This document shows, piece by piece, positions 5,860 through 19,181 of a stretch of DNA of 64,000 nt (position 1 is the stretch's first letter; each line of letters starts with the position of its first letter). Both the position numbers and the translations under genes were made by a program. The DNA comes from Anaerolineales bacterium (GTDB taxonomy: Bacteria; Chloroflexota; Anaerolineae; Anaerolineales; UBA11579), in the NCBI GenBank assembly GCA_021463845.1, contig JAJTXV010000002.1, forward strand, positions 228,962 through 292,961, in the 5' to 3' direction. The notes beneath the pieces were generated by a model. The model was not told where the DNA came from and made no database searches. It saw only the letters and a program-made list of their open reading frames with translations.

Positions 5860-6543
5860 TTAAATCTCCAGCGAATCTCCGGGCTGCATCACAAACGCCT
5901 TGGCCTCCGTTTCCGCGTTCACCCGCTTGACCCAGGCATGCTCGTCCTGCTTGATCACATCCCAGGTCGAATAGTGATACGGCTGCACGCGCTTGGGGCG
6001 CAGCAGCTTGACCGCCTTCAGCGCATCATCCGGCCCCATCGTGAAGTTATCGCCGATCGGCAGGGCCGCGAACTCCACGCCCTCGTCGCCGATCAACGCC
6101 ATGTCGCCGAACAAGCCAGTATCGCATCCCAAGTAGACCTTCTTGCCCTCCGGCGTGGTCAGCAAAAATCCGCTCGCCGTGCCCCCCGGGAAGCCGTCCG
6201 GAAACCCAGACCCGTGCGCGGCTTGCGTCAGCTTCAAATAGCCAAACGGGTGCGTGAAACCGCCGCCAATATGCTGCCCATGGGTCTTGAAGCCTTTGGC
6301 GGCGTAATAGCGCGCGATCTCATCATTGGCAATGATGGTGGCGCCGGTCCGCTGGGCAATAGGCTCCACATCCCCCGAGTGATCCCAGTGCCCGTGGCTC
6401 ACCAATATATAGTCCGCTGGCACGTCATCCATAGCGATCGAGGCCTGGGCGTTCTCCCTAAAGAACGGATCCACGACCACATGCAGTCCGTTGATCACAA
6501 AGCCACAGGTGGCGTGTCCATACCAAATATAGGTAGAGGTCAT
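5860..6543 (-). CDS. UPF0173-type metal-dependent hydrolase (metallo-beta-lactamase fold)
   Basis: The 227-residue protein contains the metallo-beta-lactamase signature HGHWDHSGD (near residue 52), the following metal His in PYHYSTWD and the early Asp in VVDPFF. Length and motif order fit the UPF0173 (YtkL-like) family, whose physiological substrate is not established. AAGGAG 5 nt upstream of the ATG supports the start, in contrast with the leaderless genes nearby. The 402 nt upstream are non-coding and AT-richer than the genes. Confidence 0.85.
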   Translation of the reverse strand: MTSTYIWYGHATCGFVINGLHVVVDPFFRENAQASIAMDDVPADYILVSHGHWDHSGDVEPIAQRTGATIIANDEIARYYAAKGFKTHGQHIGGGFTHPFGYLKLTQAAHGSGFPDGFPGGTASGFLLTTPEGKKVYLGCDTGLFGDMALIGDEGVEFAALPIGDNFTMGPDDALKAVKLLRPKRVQPYHYSTWDVIKQDEHAWVKRVNAETEAKAFVMQPGDSLEI

Positions 6544-6951
6544 ATATCTCCTTGGAATAAAGGGTAGCTTATTTCTATAAACCCTAACTATCCTTATAGT
6601 TATTGTGTCTATGTATTTAGTATTCGTACTAGGGCCTGTGGATTTGTGGATACCCGTCCAGTTAAGGGGAGTTTGCTGAAGATACGGGAGTTATACAAGA
6701 TTGAGGCGGTGTATATGTGGGTACGTTTATAAAAACTTACCCACGTTCATAAATCTAAACAATTGGGGATAGAACCGCCCTTTTTCGCACTGCGTATGGA
6801 GGAGGACTACTTGTCAGTACATATCCACACAAAGGCCCACAGGTGTCCCCTAATAACTTAGGCAGGTGGTCGCAGGGTTTTCCACAAGCTAGACCCAGGT
6901 TTCACCCGCAGTTCTCCACAGAATAGCCCTGGTTATCCACAGTAGAGATAA
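6544..6951. other. AT-richer non-coding block with DnaA-box-like sites (candidate origin or DnaA-controlled region)
   Basis: About 400 bases with no plausible gene in a GC-rich window. I see a perfect DnaA box TTATCCACA at 6933-6941 and one-mismatch versions at 6912-6920 (TTCTCCACA), 6878-6886 (TTTTCCACA) and 6821-6829 (ATATCCACA) on the plus strand, plus GTATCCACA on the minus strand (6653-6645). An inverted repeat GTGGGTA / TACCCAC (6717-6723, 6738-6744) encloses an A/T-rich 14-nt spacer, and 6565-6625 is strongly A/T-rich. DnaA boxes plus an A/T-rich stretch is the usual oriC layout, but dnaA, dnaN and similar genes are absent here, so this is a candidate only. Confidence 0.45.
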
Positions 6952-6986
6952 AAAACCGCCGTAGACACACTGTCTACGGCGGTTTT
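6952..6986 (-). terminator. Rho-independent terminator of the PadR operon
   Basis: Perfect 16-bp inverted repeat (6952-6967 with 6971-6986, loop CAC) ending in T-runs on both strands. It lies 20 nt beyond the stop of the 58-residue membrane protein gene on the minus strand. Confidence 0.85.
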
Positions 6987-7005
6987 GTGCCTGGTTTGAG
7001 CGAGG

Positions 7006-7182
7006 CTACTTGGACTGCTTGCGGGCACGCGTCACGAGCGTGAACACAGCAGACAGCACAGCATAGATCGTCAGAATGATCCACCAGGCATCCTCATACC
7101 CCATAAGGGACGCAATGATCATGGCCGCGGCCACCACCAGAGCCACCAGCACAGCTCCATAGTCTTTCAGAAATTTACTCAT
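7006..7182 (-). CDS. Small membrane protein, partial paralogue of the upstream gene
   Basis: A 58-residue product (start ATG at 7182, AAAGGA upstream) with two hydrophobic segments. It aligns along its whole length with the C-terminal half of the preceding 134-residue protein: both have E/KFLK.(F/Y)G, TIIASL/MIIASL, GYE(D/N)AWW and VSAVFTL in order. This looks like a tandem partial duplication that kept only the two-helix membrane module. The start overlaps the upstream stop by 4 nt (ATGA), so it is translated as part of the PadR operon. Function unknown. Confidence 0.75.
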   Translation of the reverse strand: MSKFLKDYGAVLVALVVAAAMIIASLMGYEDAWWIILTIYAVLSAVFTLVTRARKQSK

Positions 7183-7583
7183 GGCAGATGTCCTTTCTTT
7201 TGAAGAAAACGATACAGCAGCGTGAATACGGCAGAAACCACCGCATGCACAACCAACATGAACCACCAGGCATTTTCATAACCTCTGAGAGAAGCGATGA
7301 TTGTCACGGTTGCAACCGCCAGCGACCAGAACAGCCCGCCAAATACTTTCAAAAATTCAACCACAGGCAGCTTCTGTTCCTGGAGGATGCCCACGGAAGT
7401 CTCCGTGAACACCCAGGCCGCCAAACCCGGCAAGCTGCGGCCCGCTGCGCTCCGTTCCCTGAGCAGATCGTTGAAAGTCTGCTCCAATCCTTCGCCGAAC
7501 GTCTCCAGATACGGCTTAGGGTATAAGCCGATCAGCGCCTTGTACCATTTGCGATACCGAGCGTGCTCTCGTGTTGCTGTCAT
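7179..7583 (-). CDS. PadR-associated two-helix membrane protein
   Basis: The 134-residue product has a basic, tyrosine-rich N-terminus (HARYRKWYKALIGLYPKPY), a short helical region ending near TETSVGILQEQ, and two C-terminal membrane helices (LFWSLAVATVTIIASL and FMLVVHAVVSAVFTLLYRF). Proteins of this layout are often encoded directly after PadR regulators in Gram-positive and Chloroflexota genomes and are thought to be its regulated membrane partner; no activity is known. It overlaps the padR stop and the downstream start by 4 nt each, so the three genes are a tight operon. Confidence 0.75.
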   Translation of the reverse strand: MTATREHARYRKWYKALIGLYPKPYLETFGEGLEQTFNDLLRERSAAGRSLPGLAAWVFTETSVGILQEQKLPVVEFLKVFGGLFWSLAVATVTIIASLRGYENAWWFMLVVHAVVSAVFTLLYRFLQKKGHLP

Positions 7584-7936
7584 AGGCGGAACGCTTTCGG
7601 CAGCAGCCGCTGCTGCCTGGCCACCGCAACCACCTCGCGGTAGCGCTCCAGCTCGGCGGCCAGCGCTTTCTGGCCCAGCGCGGTGATCTTGTAGTACACG
7701 CGGCGCTCTTCGTCCAGTTCCGGGTCGCGCTTCTTGTCGCTCTTGCTGACCAGCCCTGCAGCCAGCATTCGGTTCAGCGAGCCGTACAGCGTGCCCGGCC
7801 CCATGTTCACCTTGCCCTTTGTATCCTGCTCGACCTGCTTCATGATCCCGTAACCGTGCCGCTCTCTTATGGAGAGCGCCATAAGGATGTGCAAGACCGC
7901 CGGGGTAAGCGGCGAGTTGGCGTCCGTGGTCGTCAT
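7580..7936 (-). CDS. PadR-family transcriptional regulator
   Basis: The 118-residue protein is a winged-helix PadR regulator: PLTPAVLHILMALSIRERHGYG, then GPGTLYGSLNRMLAAGL (recognition helix and turn) and the RRVYYKITALG wing with a C-terminal dimerisation helix. PadR proteins usually repress their own operon and respond to small molecules. I start at the ATG at 7936 and not the upstream ones because a consensus promoter ends 6 nt before it. The operator-like dyad in that promoter suggests autorepression of the padR-membrane-protein operon. Confidence 0.92.
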   Translation of the reverse strand: MTTTDANSPLTPAVLHILMALSIRERHGYGIMKQVEQDTKGKVNMGPGTLYGSLNRMLAAGLVSKSDKKRDPELDEERRVYYKITALGQKALAAELERYREVVAVARQQRLLPKAFRL

Positions 7937-7942
7937 GTTGGC

Positions 7943-7971
7943 ATGATACATCCGCAGCGGATATATGTCAA
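7943..7971 (-). promoter_or_regulatory. padR promoter with embedded operator dyad
   Basis: On the minus strand TTGACA (7971-7966), a 17-nt spacer and TATCAT (7948-7943). The spacer holds the dyad ATCCGC-T-GCGGAT, and a half copy (ATATCCGC) lies just upstream of the -35. The ATG follows the -10 by 6 nt, so the transcript is likely leaderless and a PadR dimer on the dyad would block polymerase. Confidence 0.75.
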
Positions 7972-7984
7972 GTGCGGATATACG

Positions 7985-8016
7985 CAAACAGGACAGCCTC
8001 GAGGCTGTCCTGTTTG
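7985..8016. terminator. Perfect 32-nt palindrome downstream of tRNA-Leu
   Basis: Two 16-nt arms with no loop base between them (centre at 8000/8001), 5 nt beyond the 3' end of the tRNA gene. No long T-run follows on the minus strand, so the termination role is inferred from its position. Confidence 0.6.
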
Positions 8017-8021
8017 CCTTG

Positions 8022-8103
8022 TGCCGAAGGTGGGAATCGAACCCACACTCCCAAGGGAACGCGATTTTGAGTCGCGCGCGTCTGCCAGTTCCGCCACTTC
8101 GGC
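8022..8103 (-). tRNA. tRNA-Leu (CAA)
   Basis: The minus strand gives an 82-nt class II tRNA: acceptor GCCGAAG pairing with CTTCGGC, D-arm with the GGCAGAC segment, anticodon stem CGCGA/TCGCG with loop CTCAAAA (anticodon CAA, reading UUG), a long variable arm (TTCCCTTGGGAG) and a TGTGGGTTCGATTCCCAC T-arm. CCA is not encoded. Confidence 0.97.
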
Positions 8104-10055: not shown

Positions 10056-10216
10056 AGCAAAGAACCGAGTAAAAATCTCCCCGCTTCCAAATCATCTTTA
10101 GTTACACAGCTCGCCCCATACACAAACGAACAAATACCTGTTTTTGTTTCCCAACGCGGGTCTCAGAGGAAGCTTATAAGAATGCAAAACTCACATGAGC
10201 GTCTGCGGAGGGGGCT

Positions 10217-10437
10217 CGGGGGAACCAACTTTGGTTCCCCCGACGGGGTCGCAGGGGCAGCGCCCCTGCAAGAAAATTCACGATTGCAAACACCCTGCAA
10301 TCTTTCTAAGCGCAGCAGTCCGCTTAATTCAAAACAAGCCACATCTGCTGCAAAAACACATTCCTAATGACGCAGCATGCTGCGCCCGCACTTATCTGCG
10401 TTCATCTGCCGTCAAACATCTGTGTCCATCTGTGGAC
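10217..10437. repeat. Intergenic block of dispersed palindromes (10056-10497 non-coding)
   Basis: The 442-nt gap before the methyltransferase holds a 12-bp inverted repeat (10217-10228 with 10231-10242), an 8-bp one (GCAGGGGC 10251-10258 with 10262-10269), the core of repeat E (GCAGCATGCTGC, 10372-10383) and degenerate repeat A copies (10392-10437). I see no gene in the gap. Confidence 0.65.
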
Positions 10438-10497
10438 TCCATTCTCAAGCGCAAAATCACCCCCTTCTCCATAATAGGCGCTGGAGCCCACACACCC

Positions 10498-11595
10498 ATG
10501 CCGCGCCCCGCATCACTGCCCCTCAACACTATCCTCCACGGCGACTGCCTCGACGAATTGGCCAAGCTCCCCGCCAACTCGGTAGACCTCGTCTTCGCCG
10601 ATCCCCCCTACAATCTCCAACTCGGCGGCGAGCTACGCCGCCCCAACAACACCAAAGTCCGCGGCGTCCAGGAAGCCTGGGATCGCTTTGATGACTTCGC
10701 CGCCTACGATGATTTCACCCGCGCCTGGCTCGCCGCCTGCCGCCGCGTCCTCAAGCCCACCGGCACCCTGTGGGTCATCGGCAGCTATCACAACATCCAC
10801 CGCGTCGGCAGCATCCTGCAAGACCTCGGCTACTGGCTGCTCAACTCCATCGTCTGGGTCAAAGCCAACCCCACGCCCAACTTCCGCGGCACCCGCTTCA
10901 CCAACGCCCACGAAACCCTGCTCTGGGCGCAGAAGGAGCAGGGCGCGCCGTATACCTTCAACTATCACGCCATGAAGTCGCTCAACGAGGACAAACAGAT
11001 GCGCAGCGATTGGCTCCTGCCCATCGCCTCCGGCCGTGAGCGCTTGCGCGCCGATGGCGAGTCTGCCCACCCGACCCAGAAGCCGGAATCCCTTCTCTAC
11101 CGCGTCCTGCTCTCCAGCACCAACCCGGGCGATGTTGTTCTCGACCCGTTCTTCGGCTCCGGCACCACCGGCGCCGTCGCCAAGCGCCTGCACCGCAACT
11201 GGCTCGGCATCGAGCGCGACGCCGCCTACGTCCGCCTCGCCCGCCGCCGCATCGGCCAGATCGAGCCCGTCGCTTATGAGAGCGGGCTCTTCGAATCTTA
11301 CGAACCCCGCCGCGAGCCGCGCGTCCCCTTCGGCAACCTGCTCGAAGCCGGCCTGCTCGAAGCCGGCCAGCGCCTCTATCTAGGCGAAAAGGGCCGCGAG
11401 AGCGCCCGCATCCTCGCCGACGGCTCGCTCAAGTTCAACGGCCGCCGCGGCTCCATCCACCAGCTCGCCAAAGACGCTCTGGATGGCCCTGCCAACGGGT
11501 GGCAGCACTGGCACTACATCGACCCAGACACCGGCCAGCGCCGCCCCATCGACCACCTCCGCCAATTGTTGCGCCAGGCAACAAAAGTGAAGTAG
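10498..11595 (+). CDS. ccrM: CcrM-type adenine DNA methyltransferase with C-terminal RAMA domain
   Basis: This is a beta-class N6-adenine methyltransferase. Motif IV is FADPPYNLQ (DPPY at residues 35-38). The block WVIGSYHNIHRVG...NFRGTRFTNAHETLLWA is characteristic of the CcrM/HinfI group that methylates GANTC. HPTQKPE and the AdoMet motif DPFFGSGTTG (216-225) follow. From about residue 273 to the end there is a RAMA-type DNA-binding tail (VPFGNLLEAGLLEAGQRLY, GSIHQLAKDAL, PIDHLRQL), as in Caulobacter CcrM. Length (365) fits CcrM (~358). No restriction endonuclease gene is adjacent, so it looks like a solitary regulatory methyltransferase. GANTC specificity is inferred from similarity. The frame is open upstream to 10195, but the first part is repeat-derived, so I use the ATG at 10498. 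Confidence 0.92.
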   Translation: MPRPASLPLNTILHGDCLDELAKLPANSVDLVFADPPYNLQLGGELRRPNNTKVRGVQEAWDRFDDFAAYDDFTRAWLAACRRVLKPTGTLWVIGSYHNIHRVGSILQDLGYWLLNSIVWVKANPTPNFRGTRFTNAHETLLWAQKEQGAPYTFNYHAMKSLNEDKQMRSDWLLPIASGRERLRADGESAHPTQKPESLLYRVLLSSTNPGDVVLDPFFGSGTTGAVAKRLHRNWLGIERDAAYVRLARRRIGQIEPVAYESGLFESYEPRREPRVPFGNLLEAGLLEAGQRLYLGEKGRESARILADGSLKFNGRRGSIHQLAKDALDGPANGWQHWHYIDPDTGQRRPIDHLRQLLRQATKVK

Positions 11596-14994: not shown

Positions 14995-15023
14995 TTGATT
15001 ACCCCCGCCCACGCTGGTATAAG
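14995..15023 (+). promoter_or_regulatory. Promoter of the deoxynucleoside kinase gene
   Basis: TTGATT (14995-15000), 17-nt spacer, TATAAG (15018-15023). The ATG is only 10 nt after the -10 box and no Shine-Dalgarno sequence fits, so the leader is at most a few nucleotides. Confidence 0.6.
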
Positions 15024-15033
15024 AAATCTTGCC

Positions 15034-15669
15034 ATGTATATTGCCATTGAAGGCGTGATCGGGGTGGGCAAGACCACCCTGGCACGCCTGCTCCAGGAAC
15101 GTTTTGATGCAGAGCTGCGCCTTGAGGTGTTTGACGAAAACCCCTTTTTGTCAGATTTTTATGCTGACCGGGCGCGGTATGCATTCCAGACCCAGATCTT
15201 CTTTCTGCTCAGCCGCTATCACCAACAGAACGGGTTTGCCCCCGACATTCTCACCAAGGGCAAGAACCTCATCACAGACTACACCTTTGCCAAGGACGCG
15301 CTTTTTGCGCGCATCAACCTGGTGGGGGATGAGCTGGAGATGTACTACAACGTGCACGACGCGTTGGCCGAAAAGATCCAGCTGCCCGAGCTCATTGTGT
15401 ACTTGCAGGCCTCCACCGATGTGCTCATGCAGCGCATCGCCCGCCGTGACCGCCCGTACGAGCGCCAGATGGAGCGGGCTTACATTGATACGCTCAATCA
15501 GGCCTATGAGGGCTTTTTTGACGATTACATCAAGGGTGTGCCGGTGTTGCGCATCCCGACCGATGAGCTCGATATTGTCAGCAGCCCGCAGGCGCAGGAT
15601 CATGTAGAGCAGTTGATCCGTGACGCCATACAGTCAGCGCCGCGCCAAACCCAGCTTCCGCTTGAATAA
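15034..15669 (+). CDS. Deoxynucleoside kinase (dNK family)
   Basis: The 211-residue protein would phosphorylate deoxynucleosides for salvage in the cytoplasm. It has the P-loop IEGVIGVGKTTLARLL, the FDENPFLSDFYADRARYAFQTQIFFLLSRY block of the dCK/dGK family (the Glu and Gln that hold the base), the DYTFAKDALFA segment with the DRS-like motif altered to D-Y-T, and the LID arginines in RIARRDRPYERQME. The substrate (dA, dG or dC) cannot be assigned. The ATG at 15034 begins the family N-terminus MYIAIEG; the frame is open 39 nt further upstream but that part lies in the promoter. Confidence 0.9.
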   Translation: MYIAIEGVIGVGKTTLARLLQERFDAELRLEVFDENPFLSDFYADRARYAFQTQIFFLLSRYHQQNGFAPDILTKGKNLITDYTFAKDALFARINLVGDELEMYYNVHDALAEKIQLPELIVYLQASTDVLMQRIARRDRPYERQMERAYIDTLNQAYEGFFDDYIKGVPVLRIPTDELDIVSSPQAQDHVEQLIRDAIQSAPRQTQLPLE

Positions 15670-16444: not shown

Positions 16445-17236
16445 TTACCTCCAACGCGTCAGGATCGTCTCGCGTTGAAACAAGCGGACTGCAAAATATA
16501 GTAGCGCAAGATCAATGAACACCAGCGCTCCGGCAATGCTGAGCATCAGCGATTGATTGAGCGCCACGGCCCCAAACATCTGGCCGAGGAAGAGAGCCAT
16601 TACCGGAAGGATCAGCAGCGCCGCCAGCTGCTCCGCGGCACGCGGGTCGTTCACGCGCGAGGAGATCATGATCGCCAGGCTTACCCCGGTCACCGAGACC
16701 AGCGGGCCGACCACAAAGATGCCCAGCAGCCACAGCGGTGACAGCAGGCGCGTCGCCACCGGGCCGCCGGCTATCACGCTGGTGCCGATGGCAAAAATGG
16801 TGAAGCTGGCCAGGCTGGCAAACAGCGCCGGCAGCGCCGCCGCCAGCGCTTTACCGGTCAGCAGCTCAGCCGTGGTGATGGGGGTTGCCAGCAAAGGTTC
16901 CAGGGTGCGTGTGGTCTTTTCGCCCACGATACTGTAGGACGCGATCGTGATGGGGATGATGGCCGGCATTAGCAGGAACAACACAAGGAACTGCTGCAGC
17001 AAAATAAGCTGCGTACACTGCAAGCCCTCCAGCGGGCCGCAGGCAGTTTCGAGCGCGGCCAGCAGCGGCCCAAACTCGGATTGCACTGCGCTTAGGTCGG
17101 CGCCGACGGTGGTGTACAGCAGGCCCAATGGAATGAGCGCAAAGACCAGCGGCATGAACACTACGCTGAAGATCACCAGCTTGTTGCGGAATACCTCCGC
17201 CCATTCCTTGCTGATAAGTACGCCTATCTTTTTCAT
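16445..17236 (-). CDS. ABC-2 type transporter permease (NatB-like)
   Basis: The 263-residue protein has six hydrophobic segments, including VIFSVVFMPLVFALIPLGLLY at the N-terminus and the ABC-2 core AIIPITIASYSIVGEKTTRTLEPLLATPITTAELLTGKALA, the strongly conserved SIVGEKxxxTLExLLxTPxxxxEL signature of NatB/ABC-2 permeases. An extracytoplasmic loop near residues 40-70 has two Cys residues. It overlaps the stop of the upstream CPBP-ATPase gene by 4 nt and is clearly its partner. The substrate is unknown; Na+ export and drug or peptide export are the common roles of this family. Confidence 0.88.
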   Translation of the reverse strand: MKKIGVLISKEWAEVFRNKLVIFSVVFMPLVFALIPLGLLYTTVGADLSAVQSEFGPLLAALETACGPLEGLQCTQLILLQQFLVLFLLMPAIIPITIASYSIVGEKTTRTLEPLLATPITTAELLTGKALAAALPALFASLASFTIFAIGTSVIAGGPVATRLLSPLWLLGIFVVGPLVSVTGVSLAIMISSRVNDPRAAEQLAALLILPVMALFLGQMFGAVALNQSLMLSIAGALVFIDLALLYFAVRLFQRETILTRWR

Positions 17237-19155
17237 GTCGCCGCCTCTGGCTGGGCCTGGGCGCCTAGCAGTTGAAAGTACACGTCTTCCAGGCTCTGGC
17301 GGATCTCGCCTACGAACTGCACGTCAGCGCCTAGCCCAACCAGCTCGCGCAGCAGTTCAGGGTTGTGGGCTTCTGGGTCGTCCAGCTTCACCACGATCTT
17401 GTCGCCGCGCAGATCGGCCTCATGGACATAGCTTTTCTGGCGCAGCGCATTGACAAATGCTTCTTTGGCTGCGGCCAGATGGAAAACCACCGAGCGGCCA
17501 AACAACTTGCGCCGCAAGCTGTTTGGCGTGTCCACTGCCAGCAGCTTGGACTTGAAGACCGCGATACGGTCGCATAGACGGTCGGCCTCGTCGAGGTTGT
17601 GGGTGGTGACAATGATGGTGCGGCCCTCGCCGCGCAGCTGCTCGATAAAATCGCGCACTACTCGCGAAGCCTCGGGGTCCAGGCCGCTGGTCGGCTCATC
17701 CAGAAAGATGACTTTGGGCTCGTGCAGCAGGGCGCGGGCAATGGCCAGCTTCTGGCGCATACCCTTCGAGAAGCCGCCCACAGCTTCGTGGCGGCGGCCC
17801 CACAGGCCCAGCATGCGCAGATAGCGTTCCACCTGACCGGGGATGTTGTCCACTTCGTACATCCTGGCAAAGAAATCCAGGTTGCGCTCGGCACTTAGTT
17901 GCTCGTACATGCCGGGTGTCTCGGTCAGAATGCCGATGTCCTTGCGCAGTTGGGTATTGTCGTCGCCCACGCGGTGGCCGGCCACCCAGGCTTCGCCTTC
18001 GGTGGGCGAGATCAGCGCCGCTAGCATGCGGATGGTGGTGGTCTTGCCGGCCCCGTTAGGGCCGAGCAGACCAAACACTTCACCCACCGGGATCTTGAGG
18101 TCAATATGGTCCACCGCCTCCAGGCTGCCGAAGCGCTTGGTCAAGCCGCTGGCAATGATCGCATCGGCGCTGGGCGGCGTGGCCGGGCCTGCAGACGGGC
18201 CGGATGTTTCACGTGAAACATCGCTGGTCGTTCCGCCCACCTCGCCATTCTTCCACAGCAGATAGGCTGCCAGCAGGGCGCTGGGTAGGCCACCGATCAG
18301 GCCGGTCGGCAGCGGCCCCAGCAGGGAGTTCAGGCCGGGAGCATCCAGATGGGTCATGTAAATGCCCACGCCGGCGATGGCGTTGATGCTGCCGTGGGCG
18401 ATGACCGCCGGCCACACACTGCCGCCGCGCAAGGTGAGCCAGCCGATGATGACCGCCAGCGGGATGGTGAACCACACCATCGCCAGAATACCGGTCCAGG
18501 GCTCGCCCCAATAGCCGAAGCCGTAGTTGTGACCCATGGCAATGATCGGCGCGTGCCACAAACCCCAGATGACGCCGACCGCCAGCATGGCCTTGCGGAA
18601 ACCGAGTGGCATCAGCTTGGGCTGCAGATAGGCCCGCCAGCCAAACTCTTCGCCGAAGGTAAAGATGCCGTTGATGATCGGCCCAAGCAATACGCCTTGC
18701 CCGATCTGGATCAGCATCACTGTCCAAACATCAAAGGGCAATTCCTGCCCCGCCATAGCGGCCGCATTGTCCAGTACGGTTTGCAGCGGGGTCAGGTTGC
18801 TGTCAAAGTGGCTGGGGTAAATGGCAAAGTACACCACCAAGCCCAACAAGGTCAGGATCGGCGGCAGCACCCAGGCCAGGACCCAGCTCATCCAGTTGCG
18901 GCCGGCCTGCGGGCGCAGCCACATGTCCTTCCAGCCTTCGCGCGTGATCACGCGGGTCAGCAGGTGCGCAACCGCGGGCGCCCACATACAGCCCAGCGCC
19001 AGCAGCGCGGTGGCCAACGTGATGCCAGTGCCCGGCAGGATCTCGGGGCTGTTGACCAGGCCACCGTTGAGATAGATCACGCCCGCGATCGCCCAACAAA
19101 GGCCAAAGGCCAGGCCTACAAAGATCCAAATACGTCGTGTGTCTAGAGTGTTCAT
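17233..19155 (-). CDS. Fusion of CPBP intramembrane metalloprotease and ABC transporter ATPase
   Basis: The 640-residue protein joins two domains. Residues about 1-310 are a multi-span CPBP (CAAX protease and bacteriocin-processing) domain with all three motifs intact: EEFGWRAYLQ (EExxxR), VIWGLWHAP (FxxxH type) and VIAHGSINA (HxxxN). A polar linker of about 35 residues follows. Residues about 345-640 are an ABC ATPase: Walker A LLGPNGAGKTTT, signature GFSKGMRQKLAIARAL, Walker B VIFLDEPTSGLDPEASR and switch His in IIVTTHNLDEADRLCDR. The start at 19155 has GGAG 5 nt upstream. A perfect parS sequence encodes part of the linker (DVSRET). The ATPase would power the permease encoded next; the fused protease may act on a peptide handled by the exporter, but that is inference. 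Confidence 0.88.
   Translation of the reverse strand: MNTLDTRRIWIFVGLAFGLCWAIAGVIYLNGGLVNSPEILPGTGITLATALLALGCMWAPAVAHLLTRVITREGWKDMWLRPQAGRNWMSWVLAWVLPPILTLLGLVVYFAIYPSHFDSNLTPLQTVLDNAAAMAGQELPFDVWTVMLIQIGQGVLLGPIINGIFTFGEEFGWRAYLQPKLMPLGFRKAMLAVGVIWGLWHAPIIAMGHNYGFGYWGEPWTGILAMVWFTIPLAVIIGWLTLRGGSVWPAVIAHGSINAIAGVGIYMTHLDAPGLNSLLGPLPTGLIGGLPSALLAAYLLWKNGEVGGTTSDVSRETSGPSAGPATPPSADAIIASGLTKRFGSLEAVDHIDLKIPVGEVFGLLGPNGAGKTTTIRMLAALISPTEGEAWVAGHRVGDDNTQLRKDIGILTETPGMYEQLSAERNLDFFARMYEVDNIPGQVERYLRMLGLWGRRHEAVGGFSKGMRQKLAIARALLHEPKVIFLDEPTSGLDPEASRVVRDFIEQLRGEGRTIIVTTHNLDEADRLCDRIAVFKSKLLAVDTPNSLRRKLFGRSVVFHLAAAKEAFVNALRQKSYVHEADLRGDKIVVKLDDPEAHNPELLRELVGLGADVQFVGEIRQSLEDVYFQLLGAQAQPEAAT
18205..18220. 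promoter_or_regulatory. parS-like site (perfect consensus), inside a coding sequence
   Basis: TGTTTCACGTGAAACA, identical to the 16-bp palindromic consensus bound by chromosomal ParB. It lies in the linker-coding part of the CPBP-ATPase gene. Confidence 0.8.
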
Positions 19156-19165
19156 GCTGCTCCTA

Positions 19166-19181
19166 TGTTTCACGTGAAACT
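19166..19181. promoter_or_regulatory. Second parS-like site (15 of 16 bases)
   Basis: TGTTTCACGTGAAACT in the 30-nt gap between two genes of the ABC operon, 961 bp from the perfect site and also palindromic over its central 14 bases. Confidence 0.75.

Follow-up and report, generated by a model that had tools for sequence, protein, structure and literature searches.

A predicted chromosomal replication origin with a DnaA-trio-like array in an uncultured Anaerolineales bacterium

Linkage to dnaA, dnaN or gidA is usual for a chromosomal replication origin (oriC) but does not define it. Among described systems, the closest is the basal unwinding system (BUS) of Bacillus subtilis oriC, which comprises two DnaA boxes, a GC-rich step and DnaA-trios, the latter being at least three consecutive NAN trinucleotides with a conserved middle A (as given in the available portions of PMC8287927). 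In the oriC of Thermotoga maritima, a DNA unwinding element (DUE) with TAG repeats is followed by five DnaA boxes, according to the available part of PMC10316083, and the accessible text on Ori-Finder 2022 states that in some species oriC is distant from dnaA (PMC10225481). Searches of the PMC open-access literature gave no paper on an Anaerolineae origin and none combining "DnaA-trio" with "Chloroflex"; DoriC or the supplement of PMC8287927 may contain a predicted entry.

We analyzed a 64-kb stretch of DNA (the window; C12:228962-292961) from an Anaerolineales bacterium whose genome (G000) comprises 2.33 Mb in 20 contigs, the contig in question, C12, being 419,728 bp long. Close relatives are metagenome-assembled genomes labeled "Anaerolineales bacterium". 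Whole-chromosome tests were carried out in a congener, G007 (matching CP075367.1, ACE_CHL1), which is a complete single-contig chromosome of ~2,242 kb. A sequence-only reading had proposed a replication origin or, alternatively, a DnaA-regulated region in this part of the window. The first alternative gained support from the densest DnaA-box cluster of both the contig and G007, the least stable DNA of the contig, a strand-bias switch at or near the locus, the sole parS pair nearby in 7/7 congeners, dnaN at a distance of 9 kb, and an order-wide element with roughly one copy per genome. Window positions 6555-6941 are very probably the oriC of this uncultured organism, as judged from sequence and its comparison. 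The features of the locus are as follows (window coordinates):

5860-6543, minus strand: metal-dependent hydrolase gene (metallo-beta-lactamase fold; NF001911), neighbor of the predicted oriC in this genus
6555-6624, no strand: predicted DUE, 73% AT, by nearest-neighbor stability; least stable 50-bp core at 6569-6618 (76% AT)
6618-6632, plus strand: five DnaA-trio-like trinucleotides, TAG-TAT-TCG-TAC-TAG, the box-proximal one last; all five are T-[A/C]-N
6633-6636, no strand: GC-rich step GGCC from trinucleotides to boxes, seen in the sequence and in the spacer columns of signature matches
6637-6653, minus strand: two abutting DnaA boxes, AAATCCACA (6637-6645) and GTATCCACA (6645-6653), offset by 8 nt
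6716-6772, no strand: three weak DnaA-box-like words (6716 minus, 6737 plus, 6764 minus), each with two mismatches, around an inverted repeat of 12 nt; candidates from the window sequence alone
6821-6829, plus strand: DnaA box ATATCCACA, one mismatch
6878-6886, plus strand: DnaA box TTTTCCACA, one mismatch
6912-6920, plus strand: DnaA box TTCTCCACA, one mismatch
6933-6941, plus strand: perfect DnaA box TTATCCACA, 21 nt from the preceding box
6952-6986, minus strand: terminator-like hairpin, perfect over 16 bp, with a T-run after it on the minus strand (-26.4 kcal/mol, z -6.7), between the leftward genes and the predicted oriC
8021-8103, minus strand: tRNA-Leu (CAA)
18205-18220, no strand: parS, perfect 16-mer
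19166-19181, no strand: parS, one mismatch

The order and orientation of TAG-type trinucleotides, GC-rich step and tandem DnaA boxes, with further boxes beyond, are the same as in the BUS of Bacillus subtilis oriC as described in the available portions of PMC10316083 and PMC8287927; however, the candidate does not lie in a dnaA-dnaN gap. The DnaA boxes at 6637-6653 (one with at most two mismatches) are no farther from the trinucleotides at 6618-6632 than the 16 nt that a BUS allows. In this genome, three or more consecutive NAN trinucleotides were present in no register and the strict BUS motif test fails, so we call the candidate a BUS-like variant; as such it would be expected to work like a BUS. 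The locus also resembles the T. maritima oriC, in which a DUE with TAG trinucleotides flanks a region of DnaA boxes that point both ways, but the boxes there are of the ACCTACCAC type (from the part of PMC10316083 available), whereas those of the candidate are of the TTATCCACA type, and here ~170 nt with weak boxes separate the twin boxes from the array at 6821-6941. The DnaA of the genus contains the DHTT signature of the box-reading domain, in keeping with TTATCCACA-type boxes.

The region is a non-coding gap, as had been proposed, with no ORF of at least 80 aa inside 6568-7005. The AT-richness ascribed to the whole gap is real but local, reaching 73-76% in 6555-6624. The perfect box at 6933-6941 was confirmed, as were the four near-matches on both strands, since exactly four one-mismatch boxes were found (6645 on the minus strand; 6821, 6878 and 6912 on the plus strand). 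The inverted repeat described as 7 bp exists, but its length had been understated: it spans 6717-6728 and 6733-6744, 12 nt at 92%. The abutting twin boxes and the trinucleotide array had been missed; such a minus-strand pair is the only one on that strand in contig C12, and likewise in the G007 chromosome.

Clustering of DnaA boxes was pronounced. The whole window held two perfect and 19 one-mismatch boxes, 5/21 of which clustered in a 300-bp span at the candidate, and 6/40 of its TCCACA cores fell in 6637-6941. Across contig C12, the candidate was the densest place by cores (6/234 in 420 bp; the runner-up had 4) and had five one-mismatch boxes in 500 bp, compared with at most 2 elsewhere. The orthologous gap of G007 (321,382-321,685) ranked first by TCCACA (6/1250 cores, next 5) and by one-mismatch boxes (4/322, next 3). 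It had been stated that an equal density of box-like words in other gaps would speak against the candidate; the density was unmatched for these two motifs, but TTWTNCACA was more frequent at another place in G007 (3 at 1,635,262, compared with 2 at the candidate). One might suppose that the words cluster by chance, the gap being AT-rich, as such gaps would be expected to be richer in TTATCCACA-like words. When the 420-kb contig was simulated in 60 Markov-1 copies, however, the densest 306 bp contained 2 to 5 cores and none (0/60) reached the observed 6, and the element is conserved order-wide. For these reasons we rejected chance, which is so improbable as to be negligible; apart from TTWTNCACA, the box cluster exceeds chance expectation.

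Outside the window (G000:C12:124478-124507), the minus strand carries a further pair of perfect DnaA boxes with a spacing of 21 nt, located where an ORF encoding a multi-pass membrane protein begins (DUF92-like by eye); the pair is conserved at G007:C1:216871-216900. This pair is perhaps a DnaA-regulated or titration site.

Beside the boxes lies a predicted DUE, AT-rich and, by calculated stability, easily melted. No other 50-bp or 70-bp segment of the 419,728-bp contig is as unstable, and at 100 bp it is one of two peaks; when the 2.24 Mb of G007 are ranked by instability, the orthologue is among the first 11 (50 bp), 20 (70 bp) and 23 (100 bp) peaks. On the other side, the hairpin at 6952-6986 probably stops transcription from the leftward PadR/tRNA side before it reaches the predicted origin. 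Between the latter and tRNA-Leu, positions 7006-7987 contain a PadR-type regulator and two small ORFs without a Pfam match; in G007, a tRNA-like sequence was seen by eye directly after the origin.

We further examined strand bias, using for G007 third-codon-position skew and gene-strand curves based on crude gene calls of our own (1,983 ORFs). The third-position T-A skew was smooth, with a minimum at 323,392 (2.0 kb from the cluster at 321,382) and a maximum at 1,503,473; the gene-strand minimum was at 333,154, 12 kb from the cluster by these crude calls. The raw T-A skew had its minimum at 304,986. On the contig under study, the gene-strand minimum (236,947) was 1.3 kb and the third-position T-A minimum (248,092) 12 kb from the cluster (235,598). 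The cumulative GC skew suggested earlier as a check did not favor the candidate: the raw minimum was at 356,208 in G007, 35 kb to the right of the cluster (maximum 1,512,982), and at 268,418 on the contig, 33 kb to the right. This displacement has the same direction in both genomes and amounts to 1.6% of the chromosome, making GC skew the dissenting measure. The strand-bias switch of G007 is thus 2 kb (third-position T-A), 12 kb (gene strand) or 35 kb (raw GC) from the cluster, in a chromosome of 2,242 kb; for the organism under study, one contig was read.

The same-direction offset in two genomes, together with the agreeing keto skew (minimum 355,078 in G007), is what would be expected if replication fired from the minimum of GC skew (window ~39.5 kb; 356 kb in G007), the candidate being just a DnaA-binding region close by. 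However, no DnaA-box cluster occurs at that minimum, the switches of third-position T-A skew and of gene orientation are closer to the candidate, and the DUE and the class-wide element belong to the candidate. Moreover, GC skew is ragged in these genomes, with several Vs in G007 and C12 (on the contig, a second V at ~100 kb), whereas the third-codon-position T-A skew is smooth. An origin at the GC minimum is therefore very unlikely, and we retain 6555-6941 as the predicted oriC.

The parS-like sites, which had been placed about 11 kb away, were measured at 11.3 kb. They match the 16-bp TGTTTCACGTGAAACA, and parB-family genes are present elsewhere, the best one on another contig (534 kb away in G007). 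In 7/7 congeners searched, the genome had two parS sites and no more (at most one mismatch), 10-24 kb from the element. Those of the window coincide with an ABC-transporter gene (17233-19173), lying inside it or where it begins. The statement that oriC-linked genes are lacking holds for the window, from which dnaA, dnaN and gidA are absent, but dnaN is only 2.4 kb beyond its left edge; it lies 9 kb to the left of the candidate in both genomes searched, so the apparent lack of an oriC gene nearby is partly an accident of where the window ends. To the right, dnaA is 129 kb away in this genome and 132 kb in G007, and gidA is unlinked. Compared with other dnaA-distant origins, dnaN here stays 9 kb away while dnaA is at 129-132 kb.

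Other genes in the vicinity include a CcrM-like adenine methyltransferase gene (10195-11595, ~3.4 kb from the predicted oriC; best NCBIfam match NF050803, 535.9 bits, below the cut-off of 830). A CcrM-like ORF also occurs near the element in loci L059 and L062, yet 6500-7000 contains no GANTC and also no GATC; the expected count of these words is low, which makes their absence uninformative on methylation control of the candidate origin. A deoxynucleoside-kinase-like gene (14995-15669) lies 8 kb from the predicted oriC, and similar ORFs stand beside the element in loci L276, L278, L291 and L298 of family f13, perhaps as a remnant of a common gene order.

Loci of relatives were aligned with MAFFT. 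Upstream of the hydrolase gene, boxes occupied matching positions in 10/10 genus loci examined (of 11 genus genomes) and in three more genera of the family, and in other families no boxes in that arrangement were detected upstream of the same gene. From the family alignment we derived a signature, TAGTAGNNCCTGTGGATNTGTGGAT, which was searched with at most three mismatches and with the reversed pattern as a control. It matched 136/400 genomes of the order (65/130 genera), nearly always once, compared with 4/400 for the control as counted from our own table; within the family it was present in 17/24 genomes by our own count. The other 264/400 genomes of the order, single-contig ones included, had no signature at three mismatches. 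Outside the order, 31/153 genomes of the class had a match (32/160 with G000; control 3/160). The next-best place in G007 had 6 mismatches. In addition, a DnaA-box pair spaced 19-23 nt occurred at +200 to +345 in 43/45 loci, compared with 9/20,000 random G007 places; the 45 loci comprised 30 from the signature search and 15 family loci (G011, G017 and G023 were left out, and G004 was included with 4 mismatches). The element is accordingly conserved in relatives. Genomes G236 and G524 each have two signature matches on different contigs, and in G531 (C59:43203-43523) two matches lie 296 bp apart in opposite directions, possibly a mirrored origin.

The conserved position directly upstream of the hydrolase gene in 10/10 genus loci would also fit a locus that titrates or activates DnaA, or a DnaA-regulated hydrolase promoter, and the other exact box pair in the genome indicates that non-origin DnaA sites may exist. 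Across families, however, the anatomy is kept beside different genes. The neighbor is the hydrolase in this genus; in L059 and L062 it is a YchF GTPase and a CcrM-like gene; and in many f13 loci the element adjoins SpoVS-like, deoxynucleoside-kinase-like and nucleotidyltransferase-like ORFs. In L063 (family f15), a similar arrangement, found by its box array and with 7 mismatches to the signature, is directly downstream of an ORF with a clear DnaA sequence; these names were read from the sequences, and profile scans covered the genes of the window. In other families, boxes in this arrangement were lacking upstream of the same hydrolase gene, and a DUE, trios, parS and a strand switch would be needless for hydrolase regulation. 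We consider a titration or promoter function slightly less likely still than an origin at the GC minimum, and the reading as oriC is preferred.

To characterize the trinucleotides, we collected the 18 upstream letters, all but the first free in the pattern, of 129 matches from 128/400 genomes and reduced them to 106 representatives at <16/18 identity. In the free columns, the three-nucleotide phase extends over another three trinucleotides and no further, the sixth position showing AT-richness alone. Because the search pattern included the two box-proximal trinucleotides, positions 3 to 5 alone are unbiased; the rows are related, and the figures are thus counts rather than independent events. 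Among the 318 trinucleotides at positions 3 to 5, the first base was T in 280 and the third G in 202, and the middle base was A in 187, C in 109, T in 14 and G in 8. At position 3, a middle C was more common than A (59 and 39). A run of five with middle A or C was present in 92/106 representatives (113/129 matches), and three consecutive NAN from the box outward in 31/106 (40/129, TAG register). The Anaerolineales trinucleotides, T-[A/C]-N with a middle C in 109/318, thus differ from the BUS rule of a conserved middle A, as that rule appears in the available portions of PMC8287927. The strict published trio rule was dropped as a marker, as it did not discriminate here: three NAN in any register with a spacer of 0-16 were present in 22/45 loci, compared with 32% of random 40-mers of like composition.

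With trinucleotide counts from the order and, beyond it, the signature search alone, the chances are about even that origins of the whole class use a DnaA-trio variant consisting of exactly five phased T-[A/C]-N trinucleotides with middle C favored in the third. In that case, what DnaA recognizes would be not a middle A but either the amino group common to A and C or the leading T, and a cassette of ~300 nt would have kept its anatomy, lost its bond with dnaA and swapped neighbors from family to family.

From the observed elements, how they are conserved and where they lie on the chromosome, we propose how DnaA may bind, open and fire the candidate. ATP-bound DnaA would occupy the abutting pair (6637-6653) as well as the phased boxes at 6878, 6912 and 6933, together with that at 6821. 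On the twin boxes, DnaA would nucleate a filament running leftwards over the five plus-strand trinucleotides (6632-6618), which would stretch the plus strand and melt the AT-rich DUE (6555-6624); helicase loaded there would start bidirectional replication. The box array 170-290 nt away may add DnaA by looping, and ParB, loaded at the parS sites 11 kb from the candidate, would then separate the new origins.

These data provide a predicted origin and a searchable signature for a large, mostly uncultured group. The predicted origin would aid growth-rate estimates from metagenome read depth as well as genome finishing, and the shifting gene neighbors should make relocation of the origin relative to dnaA traceable. 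The T-[A/C]-N phasing would make possible a direct test of how DnaA recognizes single-stranded origin DNA.
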